A DNA stretch of 64,000 bases from Gluconobacter aidae (GTDB taxonomy: Bacteria; Pseudomonadota; Alphaproteobacteria; Acetobacterales; Acetobacteraceae). The notes under the pieces were generated by a model, which saw only the letters and a program-made list of their open reading frames with translations, searched no databases and had not been told where the DNA came from. Below, in pieces: positions 7,646 through 18,244 of the stretch; position 1 is the first letter of the stretch, and each line of letters begins with the position of its first letter. The position numbers and the translations under genes were made by a program. Where the stretch lies: the NCBI RefSeq assembly GCF_009547075.1, contig NZ_WIPH01000002.1:124001-188000 (forward strand), given 5' to 3'.

Positions 7646-8770
7646 GTGCCAGAGCCCGCGAATTCTTGTGCCGCATCTTTCAAAACTGATCTGCGTCGCG
7701 TCGATATTAATCCCGATTTCTGGTATCCGCTGGCATGGTCGACTGATCTCAAGCGCGGGAAGACGATCGGGCGACGGTTCGGGCGCTTTCCCATTGCACT
7801 GGTGCGTCCCGAAGAAGGAAATGTCTTCGCCCTCGAAGACCGCTGCGCGCACCGTCAGGTTCCGCTCAGTCTGGGCAAGGTCAGCGGTGAGGCGGTCCAG
7901 TGCTGCTATCACGGCTGGGCCTATGGCCGGTCCGGGCGATGCATTGATGTGCCGTATCTGGGCAAGGGCAAGCTGCCGAATGGTGTGAAGACGTATCCCT
8001 GTCGTGAGGCAGGCGGGATGATCTTCATTTTCCCCGGCGATGCGGAAAAGGCGGAGAGTGTGCCGCTGCCGCCTCTGGCCCAGGTGGACAATCCGGCGTT
8101 CAAGACGCGGCGTTTCAGCCCGGTCGTGAAGTGCCACTACACGTTCATGCATGAGAACCTGATGGACATGAACCATCAGTTTCTGCACCGCCGCCAGATG
8201 GGGCAGATCAGGGCGCGTTTCCTGGGGCAGGACGCGGGTGAGAACTTCATTGAGGCGCGCTACAGCTTTGCGCGGACGGGAAACCAGCAGCCACTGGCGG
8301 AACGTCTGATTTTCGGCAAGCATCACGATGATCCGAACCGGGAGCAGCCGGTCGAGGAAATCGTCAGCATCCGCACGACCTATCCGTATCAGAGCCTGAA
8401 AATCCATGACAAGGACGGCGATCTGGTCATGGAACTGTTCAGCGTTTATGTGCCCAATGCGGCGGATGGCATGAGTACGCAGTGTTTCGGCCTGCTGTCG
8501 GTGCTGCGGCCCAAGACGCCGTTCCTGATCGACATGATCTGGCCTGCGCTGGGTATCTTCACGCACCGGATCTTTGAAGAAGACCGCGAAATCATGGAAC
8601 TGGAGCAGAACGCCTGGCGCGAACTGGGCGGCGATCATAACGTCGAGGTCTTCCCGATCGTGCGCAGGCTGCGGGATCTTCTGGCACGGAACGGTGTCGC
8701 GCCGGGAACCGATACGGTGGGGCAGGCTGAAGTTGCGAGGGAACAGCCGGCTGATCCTGTCGTTGTCTGA
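7646..8770 (+). CDS. Rieske [2Fe-2S] non-heme iron oxygenase, alpha-subunit-like
   Basis: This 374-residue protein has a Rieske domain followed by a mononuclear-iron domain. The cluster ligands are C67-x-H69 and C86-x2-H89 (CAHRQVPLS and CCYHGWAYG). The iron site is at ENLMDMNHQFLHRR: D174, H177 and H181. The two histidines are three residues apart, where most ring-hydroxylating oxygenases have four. The substrate cannot be read; vanillate-demethylase-like or pheophorbide-oxygenase-like enzymes are the nearest general types. The start is GTG with AGAGGA upstream. No reductase or ferredoxin gene adjoins it. It lies 21 bases before an aldo-keto reductase gene and probably belongs to one transcript with it and the following membrane complex. 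Confidence 0.85.
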   Translation: MPEPANSCAASFKTDLRRVDINPDFWYPLAWSTDLKRGKTIGRRFGRFPIALVRPEEGNVFALEDRCAHRQVPLSLGKVSGEAVQCCYHGWAYGRSGRCIDVPYLGKGKLPNGVKTYPCREAGGMIFIFPGDAEKAESVPLPPLAQVDNPAFKTRRFSPVVKCHYTFMHENLMDMNHQFLHRRQMGQIRARFLGQDAGENFIEARYSFARTGNQQPLAERLIFGKHHDDPNREQPVEEIVSIRTTYPYQSLKIHDKDGDLVMELFSVYVPNAADGMSTQCFGLLSVLRPKTPFLIDMIWPALGIFTHRIFEEDREIMELEQNAWRELGGDHNVEVFPIVRRLRDLLARNGVAPGTDTVGQAEVAREQPADPVVV

Positions 8771-8791: not shown

Positions 8792-9637
8792 ATGAAAACA
8801 GTCACACTCAGGAATGGTGTCACGGTTCCCGCGCTGGGCATGGGAACCTGGAATATCGGCGACAGTACCGCGCGGCGCGTGGACGAGATCGAGAGCCTGC
8901 GTCGGGGGCTGGAAGCCGGGCTTCGTGTTGTCGATACAGCGGAGATGTATGGGGGTGGCCGGTCGGAAGACCTGGTGGGAGAGGCCATCGCGGATGTACG
9001 CGATGACGTCTATCTCGTCAGCAAGGTCGTGCCGTCCAATGCGTCCTATGATGGGGTGCGCAAGGCGTGCCGGCGTTCACTGAAGCATCTCGATACGGAC
9101 TGGATTGATCTGTATCTGCTGCACTGGCGCGGGGGTACGCCGCTTGAGGAGACGATCCGTGCGTTCGAGGATCTGAAGGATGACGGGTTGATCCGGGGCT
9201 GGGGTGTTTCGAACTTCGATGTCGATGACATGGAAGAAATTGAAAGCCTGTCGGGGAACTGTCTGGTCAATCAGGTTCTGTACAATCTTGAGCATCGCGG
9301 GACGGAGTTCGATCTTCTGGATCATGATCTGGGCATCGATACGGTCACGATGGCGTATTCGCCGCTCGGGCAGGGCGGAGAGCTTCTGGAGCATCCGGCC
9401 CTGAAAGACGTAGCGTCACGTCATGAAACATCTCAGGGGCCCGCCGATCCGGCGCAGATCGCACTGGCCTGGGTGCTGCGCCGGCCGAATGTGATGGCCA
9501 TTCCGAAGGCTGGGTCGCCGAAGCATGTTGCCGGAAATCTGGCCAGTCTGGAGATCACTCTGACGGATGCGGATCTCAAAACGCTGGACAGTGCTTTCCC
9601 TCCGCCGAAACGCAAGGTATCTCTCGCCATGATCTGA
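8792..9637 (+). CDS. Aldo/keto reductase
   Basis: This 281-residue NADPH-dependent oxidoreductase has a (beta/alpha)8 barrel. The catalytic pattern is visible: DTAEMYGGG carries D50 and Y55, the Lys of VSKVVPSN follows, and the His is in LYLLHWRG. GWGVSNFDVDDM and the C-terminal IPKAGSPKHVAGNL (nucleotide binding) complete the AKR signatures. Acetic acid bacteria use such enzymes to reduce aldehydes and ketoses, but the substrate here is unknown. The ATG follows an AGGA-type ribosome site. It is spaced 21 bases after the Rieske gene and 12 bases before the HyfB-like gene. Confidence 0.9.
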   Translation: MKTVTLRNGVTVPALGMGTWNIGDSTARRVDEIESLRRGLEAGLRVVDTAEMYGGGRSEDLVGEAIADVRDDVYLVSKVVPSNASYDGVRKACRRSLKHLDTDWIDLYLLHWRGGTPLEETIRAFEDLKDDGLIRGWGVSNFDVDDMEEIESLSGNCLVNQVLYNLEHRGTEFDLLDHDLGIDTVTMAYSPLGQGGELLEHPALKDVASRHETSQGPADPAQIALAWVLRRPNVMAIPKAGSPKHVAGNLASLEITLTDADLKTLDSAFPPPKRKVSLAMI

Positions 9638-9649
9638 CGGTCGTGATGA

Positions 9650-11002
9650 TTGCGGTCCGTTTCCACCCCTTGTCCGGACCGCGCCCTGCATATTTTCGCC
9701 TCCCTTTTCCACGTTGATCCGGTTTCTCTCTGTCTGGCGTTTCTGGTCGTTCCTGCCTGTGTGCAGGCGATGCAGCCGGGGCAGGCAGGGAGAGCCGTGA
9801 TTCTCTGTGTGGCGGCGCTGGCTGCGGTTCTGGGCCTGTCGCCAGCCGTTCAGGCAGTCGCGCTGGGTGTGATTGCAGCGCAGGACCGGGAGGCCTGTCC
9901 GGCAGTCTGGAGCGTTCCGGCTCTGCTGTTGTCCGTGCTGTTTCCTGCCCGGACATTCGTCGTGCTGGCAATGCTGCCGGTCCTGTTCTGGTCCGCGCTG
10001 GTGCGCCGGCCTGACGGGGGACAGGAAGGCGGGGCATCTCCCGCCGTAACGGGCATTTTAGGCGTATCGCTGGTCTGGCATGCGCCGACAGCGGTTCCGT
10101 CGGAACTCGTCGCGGGGCTTGGGGCCGCTGTCATCGGGCTGCTTGGCCGGTCTGTGCTCGGGGCCTGTCGCCCGGGAGATCTGGGGCTTTTGCGGCCTGT
10201 TCTTCTGATGGTTCTGGTCGTGGCGGCGCAGGCGGAAGGGCTTGCGGTCTGTGCCCGGATAGCACTGGAAGCCACACTTCTCGATCTGTCACTGCTGGTT
10301 CTGACGGCCGCACTGGGACGCGCGTTTCCGGTGCTGTCGGTGTTGCGGCTGCCGTTTCCGCCTTTGCCGGGACTGGTTGTCCTGTGGCTCGGGATTCATG
10401 CCGCGCTTGGTATGGCGGCGGGTGTCGAAGGGTGGAGCGTGCTTGGGGTGGCGGTCGCCCTGCTGCTCGGCCTGCTGGGTCTGTCGGATATTCTTGTTGT
10501 GGGGCGGGTGTTCCGTGCCTGTCAGGGGCGTGTTCCGGGCGTTTGCGTCCTGCTGGTGGGGGCTGGAAGTCTGCTGTTGCCCGGTCTGGCGTTCGGGGTG
10601 GTCAGTCCGGTCCTGCATTTCGTGGGTGGAGAGTGGGTCTGGCCTGTCTGGCGTATGGGCGGCGGCGATGGAGCCTCTCTGCGGTTGCCGGCTTTCGTGC
10701 TGACGGGGGCGGTTCTGTGGTGCGTGCTGGTGCGTCCCTGGCGGATTGTCGGCGGGATCGTGCAGACGGCTTCCACGCTTCTTCCTGCACTGGGAAACCT
10801 GCTTTCGGTCGGGGACGGTCTGTTTGAGGAAGCGCCGTCCCTGGGCTGGAAAATACGCTGCGTCATTGTGGCGGGGCGTCGTCGTCTCAGGGCGCTTGGG
10901 GGCGTAAAGGCTCCTGTTCTTCCTGATCTGCGTCAGGGCGCGGTGGGGCTCTGGCTCGTGCTTCTTGGTCTCGTTCTGGCGGTGCTGGGAGTGATGGCGT
11001 GA
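9650..11002 (+). CDS. HyfB/NuoL-like membrane subunit of an Ehr-like complex (diverged)
   Basis: This 450-residue, very hydrophobic protein has about 12 membrane segments. It is the first gene of a six-gene block whose order matches hydrogenase-4 (B, C, E, F, G, I), so I read it as the antiporter-like HyfB/NuoL/N subunit. True HyfB is about 670 residues; this one is short and I cannot see the usual proton-channel Lys and His motifs clearly. The start is uncertain: the in-frame TTG at 9650 has no strong ribosome site and no ATG comes until codon 41. Its last codons overlap the next start by four bases. Identity rests mainly on context. Confidence 0.6.
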   Translation: MRSVSTPCPDRALHIFASLFHVDPVSLCLAFLVVPACVQAMQPGQAGRAVILCVAALAAVLGLSPAVQAVALGVIAAQDREACPAVWSVPALLLSVLFPARTFVVLAMLPVLFWSALVRRPDGGQEGGASPAVTGILGVSLVWHAPTAVPSELVAGLGAAVIGLLGRSVLGACRPGDLGLLRPVLLMVLVVAAQAEGLAVCARIALEATLLDLSLLVLTAALGRAFPVLSVLRLPFPPLPGLVVLWLGIHAALGMAAGVEGWSVLGVAVALLLGLLGLSDILVVGRVFRACQGRVPGVCVLLVGAGSLLLPGLAFGVVSPVLHFVGGEWVWPVWRMGGGDGASLRLPAFVLTGAVLWCVLVRPWRIVGGIVQTASTLLPALGNLLSVGDGLFEEAPSLGWKIRCVIVAGRRRLRALGGVKAPVLPDLRQGAVGLWLVLLGLVLAVLGVMA

Positions 11003-11871
11003 TGGGGCATGAGATCGGCCTGATCCTGCTGTCGGTGCTGGAAGCACTGTTTCAACTGGGGCTGCTTCTTGTTCTGGCGCCCGTGATGGGCTGGTGTCTG
11101 GACAGCCTGCCGTTCTGGCTGGCGGGACGGTCGGTCGGGACAGTAAGGTTCCGTCTGTTGCAGGCGGTGCGTTTCTGGAGATCGCTGTTTCAGGTTCCGC
11201 TGGGCGGGCGTCCGGCACTGGCGCTGACGACGGGTGTGCTGACGCTTGTGTGTCTGCCGGCGGTTACGACGGGATCGGTGCTGTCGTCGCTGGCTGATCC
11301 GCTTGTTATCGGACTGGTCGTGCTGCTGGGGCGCGGATTTCTGGGGCCGGGCCTGGTGCAGGGTGAGGCGGCGCGTCTGGTGCCTGCGGTTCTGCTCCTG
11401 TGTCTGACCGAGGCCCTGATCGCTCTGGCCGCGCCGGGAACGGACGGGCTGTCTGGCCTGTGTGCGATGCTGCATATCGAGCCGGAACCCGGCCTGGAGG
11501 GTGCGCTTGCGGCCTGTGCCCTGGCGCTGGGAATTGTCTGTCCGCCTCTGCGGTCAGAGGACGTGACGCAGATGCTGTCCGGTCTGCGGGGCCGGCATGA
11601 GCGTGAGACCGCGCGCAGTATCGCCGATGTGCTCAACTGTGGCTGGCTGCTGCTGCTGGGGGATCTGGCGCTGCCGGTGAGTGTGGGGCTCGCGCAGGGT
11701 GGCGTGCAGGGCTGGTGGCTCGGGCTGCTGGCGCTGGGCGGACGGCTGGCGCTGACTGTGGCTGTGGCGGTCGGGCTGCGTCTGATGGCGCAGGAGCGGA
11801 GTGCCCGGCTGACGGCGCTGTTTGCGGGTGTGGCGCTTCTTCTGGCTCTGGCGGGGAGGTTCGGCACATGA
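10999..11871 (+). CDS. HyfC/NuoH-like membrane subunit of an Ehr-like complex
   Basis: This 290-residue protein has about eight membrane segments. NuoH/HyfC forms the membrane foot that holds the hydrophilic arm and, in complex I, the quinone cavity. The segment after the first helix (FRLLQAVRFWRSLFQVP) resembles the cytoplasmic Q-x-DL-KL loop of HyfC. A second charged loop carries LRSEDVTQMLSGLRGRHERE, where NuoH/HyfC have their conserved acidic loop. It overlaps the genes on both sides by four bases (ATGA). The strong divergence from HyfC is notable. Confidence 0.65.
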   Translation: MMGHEIGLILLSVLEALFQLGLLLVLAPVMGWCLDSLPFWLAGRSVGTVRFRLLQAVRFWRSLFQVPLGGRPALALTTGVLTLVCLPAVTTGSVLSSLADPLVIGLVVLLGRGFLGPGLVQGEAARLVPAVLLLCLTEALIALAAPGTDGLSGLCAMLHIEPEPGLEGALAACALALGIVCPPLRSEDVTQMLSGLRGRHERETARSIADVLNCGWLLLLGDLALPVSVGLAQGGVQGWWLGLLALGGRLALTVAVAVGLRLMAQERSARLTALFAGVALLLALAGRFGT

Positions 11872-12389
11872 TCGTCGGATTTGGATTATTGCTGCTTCTG
11901 GCGCTGGCGGGGCTGGGCAAGGACGGGCGGGGGCTGCCGCTTTACGGGGCGGTCTGTGCCTTTGCGGGGGCGACGGTCTGTTCGGGGTTGATGGCGCTTC
12001 TGACATCTGCCGCTCTGGTTGGGCTGAATGTTCTGGCCTGGGCCTGGCTGCGGCGGTTTGCGCCTGAAGCGCCGGACCGGGCGGCTGTTCTGCCGGTTGT
12101 CGGGACGCTTGTGCTGCTGCTCGCGCTCGGGCTGTCGGGTGCGGGTCTGGGGCTCGCGCCTGTTCTGGGTGCGGGCGCGGTTCTGGCCGGTCTTTGCGGT
12201 GCTGCGTGGGGGACGCCGCTGGTTCAGTTCACGGGATTGCTGCGGGCAGCGGACGGGCTGGTTGTTGTGGCCTGTGTGCTGCATTCATGGCCGCTTTTTG
12301 CGGCGGCGCTGAGTTTGTGGGGCGTTCTGGCTGCGCTGGGTGTCACGCTTCTGCCGCGTCTGGCGTGGCGCAGGGTGGAGGACGTCTGA
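11868..12389 (+). CDS. HyfE-like membrane subunit of an Ehr-like complex
   Basis: The 173-residue protein has about six membrane segments and little soluble sequence. Position and size fit HyfE (about 216 residues), a NuoK-like component with extra helices. The start is the ATG in the ATGA overlap at 11868; a reading extended back to 11715 would only duplicate HyfC coding sequence. The end overlaps the next start by one base (TGATG). The motif LLRAADGLVVVACVLHSWPL near residue 130 is where HyfE has its most conserved stretch. Assignment depends on order in the cluster. Confidence 0.6.
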   Translation: MIVGFGLLLLLALAGLGKDGRGLPLYGAVCAFAGATVCSGLMALLTSAALVGLNVLAWAWLRRFAPEAPDRAAVLPVVGTLVLLLALGLSGAGLGLAPVLGAGAVLAGLCGAAWGTPLVQFTGLLRAADGLVVVACVLHSWPLFAAALSLWGVLAALGVTLLPRLAWRRVEDV

Positions 12390-13489
12390 TGCATCCGCTT
12401 GCTCCTGTCGGGACGCTGTTTGCCGTAACGGTCTGGCCGCTTCTGGCGGCGTTGCTGCTGCTTTTGACGCCGGAAAACCGCCAGTCTTCCAGTAGTCTGA
12501 CTTTCGCTGTGGCGGGGCTCGCCATAACGCCGCTGGCTGTCTGGCTCATGCCGGGAACGGATGCGCTTGCCGCCGCATGTTCGTGTCTGGTGACAGCCAT
12601 TCCGCTGCTTCTGCCGCAGGCTCAGGATCGCACTGGCCGTATTTTGCCATTTCTGGTGACGGGCTGTGCGCTTCTGGCGCTGAATGTCCATTCGGCCTTT
12701 GCCGTGACGGTTCTGTGTGGCGCGGGAACGGTTCTTCTGGCCTGGCGCGAGGGGCGTGGGCCGCGCAGGGCGCTTGTTGTCTGGGATATGGCGCGCAGCC
12801 GGCTGGGCGGTGTGGTTCTGGGGCTTCTGGGGGCCTCGCTTCTGCCGATGCAGCAGTCGTCGCTTGGTGCGGTGCTGCTGACGGTAGGGCTGTGCATGGT
12901 GGCGGGGCTTGGGCCGTCGCCGGCTCCGGCGCCTGAGGCAGCACTTCTGGATACGGGGCTTCGGTTTTCGGCACTCATGCTGATGTTCCGGCTGAGTGCG
13001 TATCCGCTGGTTCATCTGCTGATGCTGATCGCGGGGTTCGGGACGATCATCATGCTCGTCCTCTCGCGTTCCTCCGGGGCGTCCTCTGGCCGGAGTACCT
13101 CCCTGCCGATGCTGTCTGCCTTCGGGGCTCTGGCGGCTGCGACCGGGGAAGGCACGGCGCTGGTCCTGCTGCTGCTTGCGGCGCTCGGGCTTGCGGTTCT
13201 GGACCTGCGCGGGGCAGTGGGCGAGGACGGGATCGCGGCCGGGGCTGCGCCCTGGCCGGTGTTCTGTGCGCTTGTCGGGATAGGGCGTTCGCTTGAGACG
13301 GGGCAGCTTGTTCTGCTGGTGGTGTGTCTGCTGCCCACTTTGTGGTCTGTGCGGCACAGGACGCTTCTGCCGGCGTTTGCGCGGGGAGAGCGGGGCATGG
13401 TGGCCGTGATGCAGGGGGTTCTGCTGCTGGGGGGGCTGTGTGGTCCGCTGTTGCTGGCCTGGCACCCGGTGACGGGGTGGCGGCCATGA
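12389..13489 (+). CDS. HyfF/NuoN-like membrane subunit of an Ehr-like complex (short)
   Basis: This 366-residue protein has about ten membrane segments. In hydrogenase-4 this position is HyfF, a second antiporter-like subunit of about 526 residues, so the present protein is about 160 residues shorter. I chose the ATG at 12389 because it forms a TGATG overlap with the HyfE-like stop and starts MHPLAPVGTLFAV. The region LDTGLRFSALMLMFRLSAYP (about 195-215) lies where antiporter-like subunits have conserved charged and helix-breaking residues. Whether a proton path survives cannot be judged by eye. Confidence 0.6.
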   Translation: MHPLAPVGTLFAVTVWPLLAALLLLLTPENRQSSSSLTFAVAGLAITPLAVWLMPGTDALAAACSCLVTAIPLLLPQAQDRTGRILPFLVTGCALLALNVHSAFAVTVLCGAGTVLLAWREGRGPRRALVVWDMARSRLGGVVLGLLGASLLPMQQSSLGAVLLTVGLCMVAGLGPSPAPAPEAALLDTGLRFSALMLMFRLSAYPLVHLLMLIAGFGTIIMLVLSRSSGASSGRSTSLPMLSAFGALAAATGEGTALVLLLLAALGLAVLDLRGAVGEDGIAAGAAPWPVFCALVGIGRSLETGQLVLLVVCLLPTLWSVRHRTLLPAFARGERGMVAVMQGVLLLGGLCGPLLLAWHPVTGWRP

Positions 13490-14925
13490 TGGGGATGGGG
13501 CGGATCATCCGCAGCGGCGAGCGGGTTGCGCTTTCGCATTATCATCTTGATGCCGAACAGTGGAGCGCGATGCTGTCCGCGCCGGGTGCGACACTGCCGC
13601 TGATATCCTGCTGGGCGGACGATGCCCGTGCCTATGTGCTGCTGCTGGAGGGGGATCGCCCGCTTGTGGCGAGTACGGCGGTGGAAGAGCGGCGTTATCT
13701 TGCGCCGTCCTCGCGTTTTGCCGGGGCCGAGTGGGGTGAGCGCGTAGCGTATGACCTCTATGGCGTGGAAGCGATGGATGCCCGCGGGAACGGAGCACCG
13801 GCGCTGGATGAGGGCGGCTGGACGTCCACCTGGCCGCTGTCGTCCCGTCCGGGGCCGGCGGCGGGAGGATTGCGGCCGCTGGCGGGAAGCCATCTGCTGC
13901 GTCCCGAGCAGACGGGGCTGAGCGGACCGCTGGAACTGTCCTTCGAGGTTCTGAAGGGCAAGGTCCGGAGTGTGGAGGTCTGCGCGGGCGGCGCGCATCG
14001 CGGGGTCGTGTCGCGCTTGCTGGGACGGACGCCGGAAGAGGCCATGCCGCTGGTGTCGCGGATGACGGCGGGTGGGTTCGTGGCGCATCCGCTGGCTTTT
14101 GCGCGGGCTGTGGCGCAGGCGCGCGGGTTGGTTCCGGGGCCCGGCATCCGGGATGTCTGGATGGTACTGCTGGAGATCGAGCGGATGTCGCTCCATCTGT
14201 TCGACATGGCCCGGACGGCGCGGGGCGTGGATGCGGAACTGCTCGCGACGCATTGCGATCATGCGCGGGAAGTCATCGCGCGGGCCTGTGCGGAGCAGGG
14301 CGTTTCGCGCCGTCTGATGGATATGGTGGCCTGTGACGGGTTTCGGGATGGGCTCGAGATCGTACCGCTGGCTCAGGCCGTTCATGCGGCGATGCAGCCC
14401 CGTCTTGCGGCGCTGGAAGAGCTTCACCGGGTTTTTGCGCCGCGTCTGGACGGGTTTGCGGTTCTGGATGTGCGGTTGGCCGAGCGCTTTGCCGTGGGCG
14501 GCGTGACCGGGCGCGCGAGCGGTCGCAGCATGGATATGCGGCGGCGGGAGGCCGGGATGCGGCTGGAGGCGTTGCGGGCGACAGGATCGAGCCAGGGGGA
14601 TGCCCGGGCGCGGGAAGAGCTGCGGCTTGCGGAGATCCGCGATTCCCTGAAGCTTCTGGAGCGGATTCTGGGGAGCATAGGTCTGGAAGACGACGAGCCC
14701 GCGCCGGATCGGACGGATGAGGGCATTGGCGTGGCCGAGGGGGCGCGCGGAGACGTATGGTACTGGGTGCGCCTGAAAGACGGGCGGATCGAGGGCCTGC
14801 ATGTGCGGGACCCGGGCGTGTCGCTTCTTCCGGTTCTGGGCGCGATGCTGCGGGGCTATCCAGTCAGGCGGGTGCCGGCGGCTCTGGGCTCGATCGGGAT
14901 TTCACCGGCGGGGATTGCGCTGTGA
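13486..14925 (+). CDS. HyfG-like large subunit (NuoC-NuoD fusion) lacking Ni-Fe cysteines
   Basis: The 479-residue protein fuses a NuoC-like domain (about 1-120; motif WGERVAYDLYGVEAMDARG) to a NuoD/[NiFe]-hydrogenase large-subunit-like domain (about 128-479; GAHRGVVSRLL). In true hydrogenases the first metal motif is RxCGxCxxxH; the aligned stretch is RMTAGGFVAH (residues 192-201), so both cysteines are replaced. The C-terminal DPCxxC is also gone: the protein simply ends SIGISPAGIAL. It therefore cannot bind a Ni-Fe site in the usual way and should not be called a hydrogenase. This fits the Ehr group of complex-I/hydrogenase intermediates. It overlaps both neighbours (ATGA, GTGA). Confidence 0.85.
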   Translation: MMGMGRIIRSGERVALSHYHLDAEQWSAMLSAPGATLPLISCWADDARAYVLLLEGDRPLVASTAVEERRYLAPSSRFAGAEWGERVAYDLYGVEAMDARGNGAPALDEGGWTSTWPLSSRPGPAAGGLRPLAGSHLLRPEQTGLSGPLELSFEVLKGKVRSVEVCAGGAHRGVVSRLLGRTPEEAMPLVSRMTAGGFVAHPLAFARAVAQARGLVPGPGIRDVWMVLLEIERMSLHLFDMARTARGVDAELLATHCDHAREVIARACAEQGVSRRLMDMVACDGFRDGLEIVPLAQAVHAAMQPRLAALEELHRVFAPRLDGFAVLDVRLAERFAVGGVTGRASGRSMDMRRREAGMRLEALRATGSSQGDARAREELRLAEIRDSLKLLERILGSIGLEDDEPAPDRTDEGIGVAEGARGDVWYWVRLKDGRIEGLHVRDPGVSLLPVLGAMLRGYPVRRVPAALGSIGISPAGIAL

Positions 14926-15407
14926 AGACTGTGCAACGGACGGGCCCTCTGAGCCTGCTTTACGCTTTTATGGATGCAACGCGCGGGCGGCCGTCTGCGA
15001 AGGGAGCGGCTTCGCGTCGGGAGCGGCCGATCGGGCTGTATGTCCTCGAGACCGGTGGCTGCGAGGGGTGCTTCATGGAGATCGAGTCCCTCAATGGCAG
15101 CGCGTTCGCGCTGGAACAGGCGGGTTTTGTCTGTGTGAGCGATCCGGCGGATGCGGACTGGCTGCTGCTGACCGGGGCGGTGACGCGGGTCTGCGCCGAA
15201 ATGGTGGACCGGGTGTGGCGGGCGATGCCGCCGGGCCGATGTCTGATTGCTGTGGGGGCGTGTGCCGTGGATGGCGGGCCTTTTCCGGCCGGTTATGCGA
15301 CGCTGGGGGGCCTGGAGGCCCTGACGCCGGTGCGGCGTTCGATTACGGGATGTCCGCCGTCGCCGGACGATATTCTGCGGGCTTTGCAGGAACTGGCGCA
15401 GGTCTGA
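14922..15407 (+). CDS. HyfI/NuoB-like small subunit with [4Fe-4S] cluster
   Basis: This 161-residue member of the complex I 20-kDa / hydrogenase small-subunit family shows all four ligands of the proximal (N2-type) cluster: C47 and C50 in ETGGCEGCFMEIESLNG, C114 in VGACAVDGGPF and C144 in ITGCPPSPDDIL. The start is a GTG overlapping the HyfG-like stop. The cluster-binding half of the enzyme is intact although the neighbouring large subunit has lost its metal site. No HyfH/HyfA-type ferredoxin gene and no hydrogenase maturation gene (hyp) is found in the window, so the electron partner is unknown. Confidence 0.88.
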   Translation: MKTVQRTGPLSLLYAFMDATRGRPSAKGAASRRERPIGLYVLETGGCEGCFMEIESLNGSAFALEQAGFVCVSDPADADWLLLTGAVTRVCAEMVDRVWRAMPPGRCLIAVGACAVDGGPFPAGYATLGGLEALTPVRRSITGCPPSPDDILRALQELAQV

Positions 15408-15572: not shown

Positions 15573-16508
15573 ATGGCTGATTATCGCCTTGGAATTGATC
15601 TTGGTGGCACGAAGATCGAAATCGCGGTTCTGAATCGTTCGGGCGATCTTGTCCTGCGTGAACGTATTCCCAACCCTGGTATCTATAATGAAGCCGTCCT
15701 GGCCATCCGTGATCTGGTGATGGATGTGGATCGTCGTCTGGGAGCGGTGCCCAGCCATCGTGTTTCGGCAGGCCAGCACACATCCACGCTGGGGATCGGG
15801 ATTCCGGGGTCTATTTCTCCGGAGACCGGGCTGATCAAGAACGCCAATGCGACCTGGCTGAACAACCAGCCTTTCGGGCATGATCTTGAATCCGCTCTCG
15901 CACGTCCTGTCCGTACGGAAAACGATGCGAACTGCTTTGCACTGTCCGAGGCGGCCGATGGTGCAGCCAAGGGGATGCTGACCGTGTTCGGTGTCATCAT
16001 CGGGACCGGCATGGGCGCGGGGATCGTCAATAATGGTCGCGTGCTGGAAGGCCGCCATCACATTGCTGGCGAATGGGGGCATCTGCCTCTGCCCTGGCCG
16101 ACGGAAGACGATATGCCGGCCCGTGACTGCTTCTGCGGGAACAAGGGCTGCATGGAGCGCTATCTTTGCGGTCCCGCGCTGGCGGCGGACTGGAAGGGGC
16201 CGGGCAACCGCAACACGGCCGGGATTGAAGAGGCAGCCGCCAATGGCGATCAGGCTGCGATTGCGGCGCTCGGTCGTTATACCGAGCGTTTTGCCCGGGC
16301 CTGCGCCATGGTCATCAACTTCCTCGATCCGGATGTGATCGTTCTCGGTGGCGGCGTCTCCAACCTTCATACGCTCTATGAGCGCGTGCCGCCGCTTCTG
16401 GCCAAGCATGTTATTACCCCGGTCTGCACGACGCCGATCGTACGGAACAAGCATGGTGATAGCTCTGGCGTGCGTGGTGCGGCATGGCTGTGGGACGTGA
16501 CGGAATAA
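15573..16508 (+). CDS. frk: Fructokinase, ROK family
   Basis: The kinase phosphorylates fructose to fructose-6-phosphate with ATP in the cytoplasm. The 311-residue protein has the ROK features: an N-terminal phosphate-binding loop LGIDLGGTKIEIAVL, the catalytic Asp in RTENDANCFALSE, and the zinc motif CFCGNKGCMERYLCG with HIAGEWGH before it. In Gluconobacter, fructose enters metabolism through such a kinase, because glycolysis is incomplete and the pentose phosphate route dominates. Other ROK substrates (N-acetylglucosamine, mannose) are possible. The 165 bases upstream hold its leader; I could not fix a promoter. A strong terminator follows. Confidence 0.88.
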   Translation: MADYRLGIDLGGTKIEIAVLNRSGDLVLRERIPNPGIYNEAVLAIRDLVMDVDRRLGAVPSHRVSAGQHTSTLGIGIPGSISPETGLIKNANATWLNNQPFGHDLESALARPVRTENDANCFALSEAADGAAKGMLTVFGVIIGTGMGAGIVNNGRVLEGRHHIAGEWGHLPLPWPTEDDMPARDCFCGNKGCMERYLCGPALAADWKGPGNRNTAGIEEAAANGDQAAIAALGRYTERFARACAMVINFLDPDVIVLGGGVSNLHTLYERVPPLLAKHVITPVCTTPIVRNKHGDSSGVRGAAWLWDVTE

Positions 16509-16581: not shown

Positions 16582-17463
16582 TCAGGCGGGTTCTTCTTCC
16601 ACCGTTTCCGACATCTCCTCCGCCGCCAGTTTCAGGCGGTGATAGGACCGGCGGGAGAAGGGCAGGATTGCAATATAGAGCAGTCCCGCACCGGCAAGAG
16701 CGCCCCAGGGGTCTGCGACCAGAAGGGCCGCATACAGGCCGGTTCCGAGCATCAGGGGCAGGACGTAACGGGCCGGAACCTTGAAATTCTTGAAGGACCA
16801 GACCGGCAGGGTCGAGACCAGTAGCAGGCCCGTGACGGTCAGGCAGACGGCCGAGACGAGGGGCAGGCGCGCGAAGGCAGACAGTCCCTCGGCATGCAGG
16901 CGGTCGGCTTCGAGCCCGAGGAAGACCGGGAACAGGACCAGTCCGGCCCCCGCGGGGGCCGGGACGCCCGTGAAGAAGCTGTATGAATATTCCGGCTTGT
17001 CGTCGTCATCGAGGCTGGCGTTGAAGCGGGCGAGACGCAGCGCCATGCAGACCGTGAACAGGATGCATGGGACGAAAGAATAGCGTCCGGCATGTTCGAG
17101 CGACCACATGAGCAGCACGAAGGACGGAGCCACGCCAAAGCACACGAAGTCCGACAGACTGTCGAACTCGGCGCCGAAGCGTGTGGCGCCTTTGAGGAGA
17201 CGTGCGATGCGTCCGTCCAGCCCGTCGATGCAGGCTGCGATCAGGAGCGCCACGGCCGCGGGTTCGAACTGGTGTTCGAGCGCGAAACGCATGCCGCTGA
17301 GCCCGGCGCAGAGACCGAGCATCGTCATGATGTTGGGGATGAGGCGGTTGAACGACGGCCCCCGCACGCGGGTACGGGGATTGCGCCCCATGCGTCGAAG
17401 CCTGCGTCGGATGCGGCGTCTTTTGGCGGGGCGGATGGGGTCAGCCGTGGGCGGTGTGGTCAT
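16582..17463 (-). CDS. pssA: CDP-diacylglycerol--serine O-phosphatidyltransferase
   Basis: The enzyme makes phosphatidylserine from CDP-diacylglycerol and serine in the inner membrane. The 293-residue protein has about seven membrane segments. It carries the CDP-alcohol phosphotransferase motif at about residues 82-107: DGRIAR, then G and two spaced Asp (DSLSD), matching DGx2ARx8Gx3Dx3D. The N-terminus is strongly basic (KRRRIRRRLRR). It starts 14 bases after psd, so the two steps of phosphatidylethanolamine synthesis are co-transcribed. Confidence 0.95.
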   Translation of the reverse strand: MTTPPTADPIRPAKRRRIRRRLRRMGRNPRTRVRGPSFNRLIPNIMTMLGLCAGLSGMRFALEHQFEPAAVALLIAACIDGLDGRIARLLKGATRFGAEFDSLSDFVCFGVAPSFVLLMWSLEHAGRYSFVPCILFTVCMALRLARFNASLDDDDKPEYSYSFFTGVPAPAGAGLVLFPVFLGLEADRLHAEGLSAFARLPLVSAVCLTVTGLLLVSTLPVWSFKNFKVPARYVLPLMLGTGLYAALLVADPWGALAGAGLLYIAILPFSRRSYHRLKLAAEEMSETVEEEPA

Positions 17464-17477
17464 GAACGGCGTCTGGC

Positions 17478-18155
17478 TCAGAGCTTCGCCAGGACAGTTT
17501 CGCCACCAACCATGGTCTGTCCTTCCACAACCAGGGGTTCAACGCCGGGCGGCAGGTAGACATCGGTGCGCGAGCCGAAGCGGATCAGGCCGAAGCGTTC
17601 GCCGGCTTCCACCCGGTCGCCTTCTTCGACGAAGCACAGGATGCGGCGGGCGATCAGCCCGGCGATCTGGACAACACCGATGTTGCGACCGTCCGGCAGC
17701 GTCAGACGCAGTTCGTTGCGCTCGTTGTGCTCGGACGCCTTGTCGAGGCTGGCATTGAGGAACTTGCCGGCGTGATAGGCGATCTTCGTCACTTCACCGG
17801 CGGCTGGCATGCGGTTGATGTGGACGTTCAGTACGGAGAGGAATGTCGAGACGCGCCAGACCGGGGTATGGCCCATTTCCAGCGCGGGCGGTGGCGTGAC
17901 GAGGGCGACTGATGTGACGCGACCATCGGCCGACGCCAGAACCAGATCGGCACGCGGCGGCGGGACGCGCTTGGGATCGCGGAAGAAATACAGACAGAAC
18001 GCCGTGAAGGCGATGCCCGCATTGCCGAGCAGGCGCGTGGCGCGCCATGGCGTGGCCCGTCCGAGCAGTCCGATGAACGAACCGGCGAGAAGGAAGGGAG
18101 TCGCGGCGCGGTGCGGCGGCGACAGGACGAGCTTGAAGGACTGGATCAGCGACAT
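17478..18155 (-). CDS. psd: Phosphatidylserine decarboxylase proenzyme
   Basis: This enzyme converts phosphatidylserine to phosphatidylethanolamine. The 225-residue protein is the short, archaeal/alphaproteobacterial type. Near the C-terminus, [12 protein letters not shown] holds the self-cleavage site, where the Ser of GS becomes the pyruvoyl cofactor. The [10 protein letters not shown] and [16 protein letters not shown] blocks are also family signatures. I take the ATG at 18155 ([11 protein letters not shown]); an in-frame TTG at 18191 would add 12 residues. It lies immediately upstream of pssA. Confidence 0.94.
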
Positions 18156-18244
18156 GGAACGCACTCTTACGGCACACGGCGGGAGGGTCAAGAATTCGCC
18201 ACAAAGAAGGCGTTTTTCGGGCAGGTTTTCCGCTCGAAACGGTC

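Follow-up and report, generated by a model that had tools for sequence, protein, structure and literature searches.

The stretch of Gluconobacter aidae DNA analysed here, referred to below as the window, is 64,000 nucleotides long (contig NZ_WIPH01000002.1, positions 124,001 to 188,000) and carries a cluster of six genes, BCEFGI, for a membrane complex related to hydrogenase-4 and Ehr. We have found that the clade to which this cluster belongs lost the lysine motifs of its two antiporter-like subunits (B and F), the ND1-type loop of its membrane anchor (C) and a loop histidine of its large subunit (G) together, as one change on a quick tree of G proteins. The cysteines for an iron-sulfur cluster in the small subunit (I) are retained. 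The joint loss of proton-path elements, with the iron-sulfur ligands kept, suggests a complex that carries or senses electrons without pumping. We therefore propose, with modest confidence, that BCEFGI is an Ehr-derived, pump-less, membrane-anchored iron-sulfur module acting as a redox relay or sensor; taken separately, the absence of pumping is very probable and an iron-sulfur redox role is probable.

The six genes, read from the open reading frames, all lie on the + strand at 9650–15407 in the order B-C-E-F-G-I, each overlapping the next by 1–4 bases:
9650–11002, + strand: B, 450 aa, TTG start (tentative), degenerate antiporter-like subunit at the HyfB position
10999–11871, + strand: C, 290 aa, NuoH/HycD-like membrane anchor with the ND1-type loop deleted
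11868–12389, + strand: E, 173 aa, NuoK/HyfE-like small membrane subunit with the conserved Glu replaced
12389–13489, + strand: F, 366 aa, degenerate antiporter-like subunit at the HyfF position
13486–14925, + strand: G, 479 aa, NuoC/D-HycE-type large subunit without Ni-Fe ligands
14922–15407, + strand: I, 161 aa, GTG start, small subunit with four Cys for one [4Fe-4S] cluster

The initial annotation, made from the sequence, had already recognised six overlapping genes in the hydrogenase-4 order, a small subunit with all four [4Fe-4S] cysteines, a large subunit without Ni-Fe cysteine pairs and shortened membrane subunits, and each of these observations is borne out by the data below. The same gene order is found in relatives, and the G protein of the window is 99% identical to that of G. 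potus and 98% identical to that of G. oxydans NBRC 14819 (L117). The genome comprises 3.0 Mb in 127 contigs and is 99.99% complete. Searches used the curated cut-offs of Pfam and an E-value of 1 for NCBIfam. Only G (PF00346, E-value 2.4e-12) and I (PF01058, E-value 9.6e-24) passed a Pfam cut-off; B, C, E and F fell below all of them, matched nothing in NCBIfam at an E-value of 1 and gave no match in a PHROGs scan.

The evidence for joint loss comes from a comparison of loci, each of which was classed by counting the lysine motif of transmembrane helix 7 (TM7-Lys) in all six frames: two copies, one each in B and F, define the intact type and zero copies the lost type. Sixteen Acetobacteraceae loci have two copies and 46, the window among them, have none. 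The C-loop pattern is present in 14 of the 16 intact-type loci and in none of the 46 lost-type loci, and the GPxH pattern of the β1–β2 loop of G in 16/16 and 2/46, respectively; in the two lost-type loci concerned (L041 and L178) the pattern is off-site, at a shifted position. From the alignment and a passage of PMC9474812, the histidine of this loop probably corresponds to the proton-donor residue of HycE. The E_LENG and R.CG.C patterns are short, also match by chance and were not used.

In other alphaproteobacterial families, long stretches were taken from 13 of 18 genomes with strong matches (L199–L211). Both TM7-Lys motifs are found in 11 of these 13 loci and one in the remaining two, L210 and L199, the latter truncated by a contig end; the C loop and the loop histidine are present in all 13. 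The same search yielded 17 short loci (L182–L198), every one of which has the F motif. As an example of the intact type within Acetobacteraceae, L039 encodes a B of 705 aa and an F of 504 aa, both with PF00361, and a C that matches PF00146 above the cut-off, together with an E whose match to PF00420 is under it. In a tree built from 66 G proteins, the distribution of lost and intact states requires a single change, and the branch concerned has an SH-aLRT support of 98. Two of the proteins, from the cut contigs L171 and L175, were left without a state (neither has the loop histidine), and two outgroup rows stand outside the groups.

Alignment of the individual subunits shows what has gone from the membrane arm. 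B and F, with 450 and 366 aa, compare with 672 aa for HyfB and 526 aa for HyfF in E. coli. The lysine blocks of TM7, TM8 and TM12 of HyfB are missing from B; in F, aligned with E. coli HyfF and intact relatives, the TM7-Lys motif, the TM7–TM8 lysine block and a later lysine are all missing. The C protein does not have the loop that bears NPATHLEL in intact relatives, which is ND1-type by position, and E has AADG at the site where intact E has LENG, so that the conserved glutamate is replaced. Loss of the residues seems to have come earlier than loss of length, since in L040 and L041 the open frames of B are 633 and 712 aa long and yet contain no TM7-Lys motif.

How securely the membrane subunits can be named varies. 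Profiles built from 32–33 acetic-acid-bacterial sequences were compared with profiles of 28 intact-type sequences, four candidate subunits each, and the namesake was the most probable of the four for each of B, C, E and F. The relationship is clear for C (probability 97.9%, E-value 5.1e-13) and moderate for B against intact HyfB-type B (probability 40.5%, E-value 2.9e-4, 285 columns); E and F are linked to their namesakes weakly by sequence. The AlphaFold2 model of F (pLDDT 89.8) matches E. coli NuoN (7z7r_N) in Foldseek with an E-value of 3.2e-5 and a TMq of 0.75, and the putative identity of F rests on its gene position and this predicted model. For the model of B (pLDDT 81.5) the top matches are mostly NuoL/M of complex I and HycC, with unrelated folds between them, and are weak (best E-value 0.032). 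Profile searches of the PDB with B alone and with F alone gave no matches.

Turning to the soluble arm, among solved structures the G profile best matches HycE of the E. coli formate hydrogenlyase (7z0s_E, E-value 1.7e-40), with further matches to the membrane-bound hydrogenase of P. furiosus and to Nqo4 of complex I, and the I profile best matches HycG (7z0s_G, E-value 2.9e-38). A Ni-Fe cysteine pair is found in the L1 or L2 columns in none of 50 aligned G proteins, that of the window included. A pattern search finds the L1 pair in E. coli HyfG but in none of the 46 lost-type, 16 intact-type and 13 other alphaproteobacterial G proteins. The corresponding L2 pattern did not detect the E. coli control, and the absence of L2 therefore rests on the 50-protein alignment. 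Some superfamily framework residues persist in G as invariant alignment columns. The GRASGxxxDxR pattern does not discriminate, since it is met in 34/46 lost-type, 12/16 intact and 6/13 other alphaproteobacterial G proteins (and in 0/1 E. coli HyfG).

In I the four cysteines are residues 47, 50, 114 and 144 and are invariant in 18 of 18 aligned proteins. Three simple cysteine patterns are all present in 112 of 113 distinct I sequences from 159 loci of both the lost and the intact types, the sole exception being L195/L206, from one genome outside Acetobacteraceae, where the last pattern is missing. The first two cysteines have CxxC spacing, which is typical of hydrogenase small subunits; in NuoB the two cysteines are adjacent.

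The arrangement that we envisage is as follows. G and I would form a cytoplasmic head sitting on the membrane, in which I very likely carries a single [4Fe-4S] cluster at the rim of the former active-site cavity of G; this cavity now has no Ni-Fe ligands and has also lost the putative proton-donating histidine. The remaining subunits, C, E, B and F, would anchor this head, the parts proposed to move protons having gone. A soluble donor may reduce the cluster, and the electron would then pass to an acceptor located within the G/I cavity; alternatively, it is the reduced state that would be sensed. If so, the loss of the pump with retention of the iron-sulfur head is a natural experiment that splits the two halves of the machine, and any role of Ehr besides pumping becomes testable in an industrial bacterium mostly without complex I. 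The joint pattern also provides an evolutionary test of which superfamily residues act as one coupled unit, the set comprising the loop histidine of G, the ND1 loop of C, the glutamate of E and the lysines of the two antiporter subunits.

Several observations weigh against this explanation. In the profile comparison E matches intact E weakly (probability 4.9%, score 24.0; intact B gives 2.9% and a score of 25.6) and the match of F to intact F is not significant (probability 0.4%). The G tree was made by a quick method, contains long branches and takes its root from two outgroup branches that are themselves long and joined, and a Thermococci row (L157) is without the loop histidine pattern. At both positions corresponding to the quinone ligands of Nqo4, which we take to be His38 and Tyr87, the residues of G differ, as read off the profile alignment. 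No partner gene recurs across families beside intact Ehr in 28 loci; a transporter-like set (TRAP-like by eye) recurs beside some of the Acetobacteraceae intact loci only, and the largest clusters in this analysis consist in part of antisense frames of the subunit genes. Finally, a passage of PMC9474812 reports that six single mutants in antiporter residues of E. coli HycC had no significant drop in H2 production. Loss of residues alone is therefore no proof of loss of function, although pumping lay outside that assay.

Comparison with known systems places the cluster closest to Ehr. Passages of three papers (PMC6349859, PMC10284858, PMC10432482) describe Ehr as having no metal-site cysteines and suspect it of ion translocation owing to its antiporter-like subunits; its function is described as unknown (PMC10284858). 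The intact loci (L039, L044 and 14 more; L199–L211) share with the window a NuoD/HycE-like G without the L1 metal cysteines and, beside it, a HycG-like I and HyfB/C/E/F-type genes. Unlike the window's clade, which keeps none of them, they retain the TM7-Lys motifs, the C loop and the loop histidine of G, and the clade is also without the long PF00361-containing B and F and the PF00146-containing C of L039. Two Ehr traits are thus present in the window, a large subunit related to group 4 hydrogenases and NuoD without Ni-Fe cysteine pairs and a small subunit with the four proximal [4Fe-4S] cysteines, and a third, the conserved channel residues for presumed redox-coupled ion translocation, is absent. 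Because this last trait is presumed and not agreed for Ehr, we file the cluster as an Ehr-derived variant and not as a typical Ehr. As to NuoH-like and antiporter-like membrane subunits within the operon, C is clear, B moderate, and E and F weak by profile, F being supported by its fold. The elements lost are those that passages of PMC9474812 and PMC11496545 propose as the proton path and coupling loops of formate hydrogenlyase and complex I. The assignment to the Ehr type in the initial annotation consequently holds for the relationship to HycE and HycG and for the missing metal-site cysteines, and needs qualifying for the channel motifs; its description of shortened membrane subunits with ion movement unknown understated the case, as pumping is unlikely and not simply unknown.

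By profile, no solved structures are closer to G and I than those of E. coli Hyf/Hyc (7z0s), which also shares the subunit order, but the window's cluster has no Ni-Fe site and lacks genes where HyfA, D, H and J would stand, and its genome has no match to HypD or PF00374. Accordingly, the two Ni-Fe CxxC pairs and the maturation genes that mark group 4 [NiFe] hydrogenases are missing. The cluster resembles complex I in the matches of G to NuoD models and Nqo4 and of the F model to NuoN; it differs in that it has no NADH module, I has CxxC spacing and the proton path elements are lost. Nor is there a NuoB/D/H/L-type set, the only genome matches being the G and I of the window. In the open-licence literature we found no description of a pump-less Ehr or of an Acetobacteraceae BCEFGI complex.

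Searches of the whole genome, with other genomes as controls, gave a single match for PF00346 (G of the window; controls positive in 11/14 genomes) and for PF01058 (I of the window; 11/14), and none for PF00361 (13/14), PF00146 (11/14), PF00374 (5/14) or HypD PF01924 (4/14). These searches thus gave no indication of complex I, of a [NiFe] hydrogenase or of hydrogenase maturation in this genome. Neither an intact Ni-binding large subunit (PF00374) nor the maturation gene HypD gave a match elsewhere. The initial annotation had also stated that ferredoxin-type subunits and maturation genes are lacking: none is found among the six genes, and HypD is without a match in the genome, in which HyfH-type genes were not searched for.

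All six genes are under purifying selection. Within Gluconobacter their median ratios of non-synonymous to synonymous substitution (dN/dS) are 0.04–0.29, compared with 0.04–0.15 for six flanking genes. In two divergence classes the medians are 0.18/0.27 for B, 0.12/0.29 for C, 0.04/0.15 for E, 0.11/0.20 for F, 0.08/0.15 for G and 0.15/0.15 for I, the 17–19 loci per gene each being compared with the window and so not independent, with a few pairs outside the two classes and dS values of around 1 or higher in the wider one. Selection is loosest on B and C.

The small subunit I is found in 26 of 26 Gluconobacter genomes, with a second, NuoB-like match in G218 only, and the same profile does pick up second NuoB-like matches in other genera. 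Since 25 of the 26 genomes have no NuoB match and all have I, I is not merely an aid to complex I in Gluconobacter. In group g33, I is found in 7/7 genomes and a second match in none. Of 50 loci examined, 13 showed no I next to G, one of them (L080) being a cut contig; the other 12 genomes, searched whole, all gave a strong match (E-value 5.6e-36 or better), in some slightly further downstream. The idea that I had been lost in several genera was thus rejected, because the whole-genome matches show that it had moved. Among 24 genomes searched for I, 23 matched, the match in G116 being NuoB-like only; G066 has neither G nor I. A count of 369/397 genomes of the family was not used as the prevalence of Ehr, its weakest matches being probably NuoD of complex I.

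These data bear on the idea that the complex is a structural relic, transporting no electrons and serving to scaffold or stabilise some other membrane complex, in the manner of bc1. Passages of Degli Esposti 2023 (PMC10715153) report that Acetobacteraceae keep 'deranged' respiratory proteins and suggest a structural role for a non-functional bc1; a term search of its main text finds 'Ehr' 0 times. The dN/dS values of B, C and F, which are above those of most flanking genes, are consistent with such a role. The iron-sulfur ligands are, however, among the best-kept residues, the opposite of bc1, where the ligands were lost, and the 25 of 26 genomes without a NuoB-like match exclude complex I as the client in Gluconobacter. 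We consider the relic unlikely.

A non-pumping quinone oxidoreductase, in which the G/I cavity would reduce or oxidise ubiquinone as does the Q module of complex I but uncoupled, appears more unlikely still. It could draw on the superfamily framework residues remaining in G, leaving aside the non-discriminating GRASGxxxDxR. As the quinone-ligand positions of Nqo4 are not kept in G, though, a quinone acceptor is doubtful, possible but not favoured, and in addition the C loop is deleted and the cluster includes no NADH- or ferredoxin-binding subunit. That ions are still pumped, through a new channel formed in the shortened B and F by residues not common to complex I, is very improbable: purifying selection has kept all four membrane subunits and F is predicted to keep an antiporter-like fold, but the lysine motifs of two subunits, the ND1 loop, the glutamate of E and the loop histidine of G have gone together.

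The neighbourhood of the iron-sulfur module that we propose is widely common to relatives, with syntenic genes on either side in many of them:
8792–9637, + strand: upstream neighbour, presumably aldo/keto reductase-like (akr)
16582–18191, − strand: downstream neighbours, presumably a pssA/psd-like pair
We take the conserved order to be pepA-akr-[BCEFGI]-pssA-psd-gloB. Beyond gloB, nadCBA-nrtR is found in Saccharibacter and in some Bombella-type loci, whereas nrtR comes directly after I in Asaia and five other genera. Where the two adjoin, a possible nrtR start and the stop codon of I share 4 bases (ATGA/GTGA) in 11 of 11 genomes from six genera. The next gene is nadA in nine of these genomes (it was not seen in G025 and G079), and nadB and nadC are seen in the six of the nine for which longer stretches were taken, giving an apparent operon I-nrtR-nadA-nadB-nadC (L113:1218-5234, L109:4821-9744, L107, L106, L105, L104). 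NrtR, NadA and a NUDIX neighbour were assigned by Pfam; NadB (an FAD-binding match) and NadC are presumed, in part from position. The window's genome has no match to one NrtR or one NUDIX protein, a search without a positive control and so uninformative. Taken as proof of a role in NAD metabolism this linkage is weakened, because one inversion of pssA-psd-gloB-nadCBA-nrtR would explain the arrangement, and we keep it as a lead. It is conceivable, and we put it forward tentatively, that the pump was lost once in the ancestor of a large Acetobacteraceae clade and that the head was kept for an unrelated, selected job, that of sensing or relaying redox state while docked to the membrane, perhaps in connection with NAD homeostasis.

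Other genes near the cluster may be recorded here. In several genera a NUDIX-domain gene and I stand head to head (L104:5910-6611, L107:5311-5988, L114:3311-4093). In most Gluconobacter loci a kinase-like gene (ROK type, by eye; 15573–16508 in the window) lies between I and pssA; L050 and L133 do not have it, and none was seen in loci from other genera. The gene at 7646–8770, which is the second one upstream of B, encodes a protein in which a Rieske-type CxH...CxxH pattern can be made out by eye.

Two small genomes also gave related loci. In an alphaproteobacterial genome of 0.9 Mb, listed as 100% complete (G576), the locus L190/L199 is an intact-type Ehr with the F motif and the C loop, and no second NuoD-like match was found at an E-value of 1e-20. 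A 1.9-Mb member of the family (G029) has, at L112:2946-6907, a G-like gene of 567 aa and an unclear I-like match, along with an open reading frame that by eye resembles a hydrogenase maturation protease; this is perhaps a true hydrogenase.

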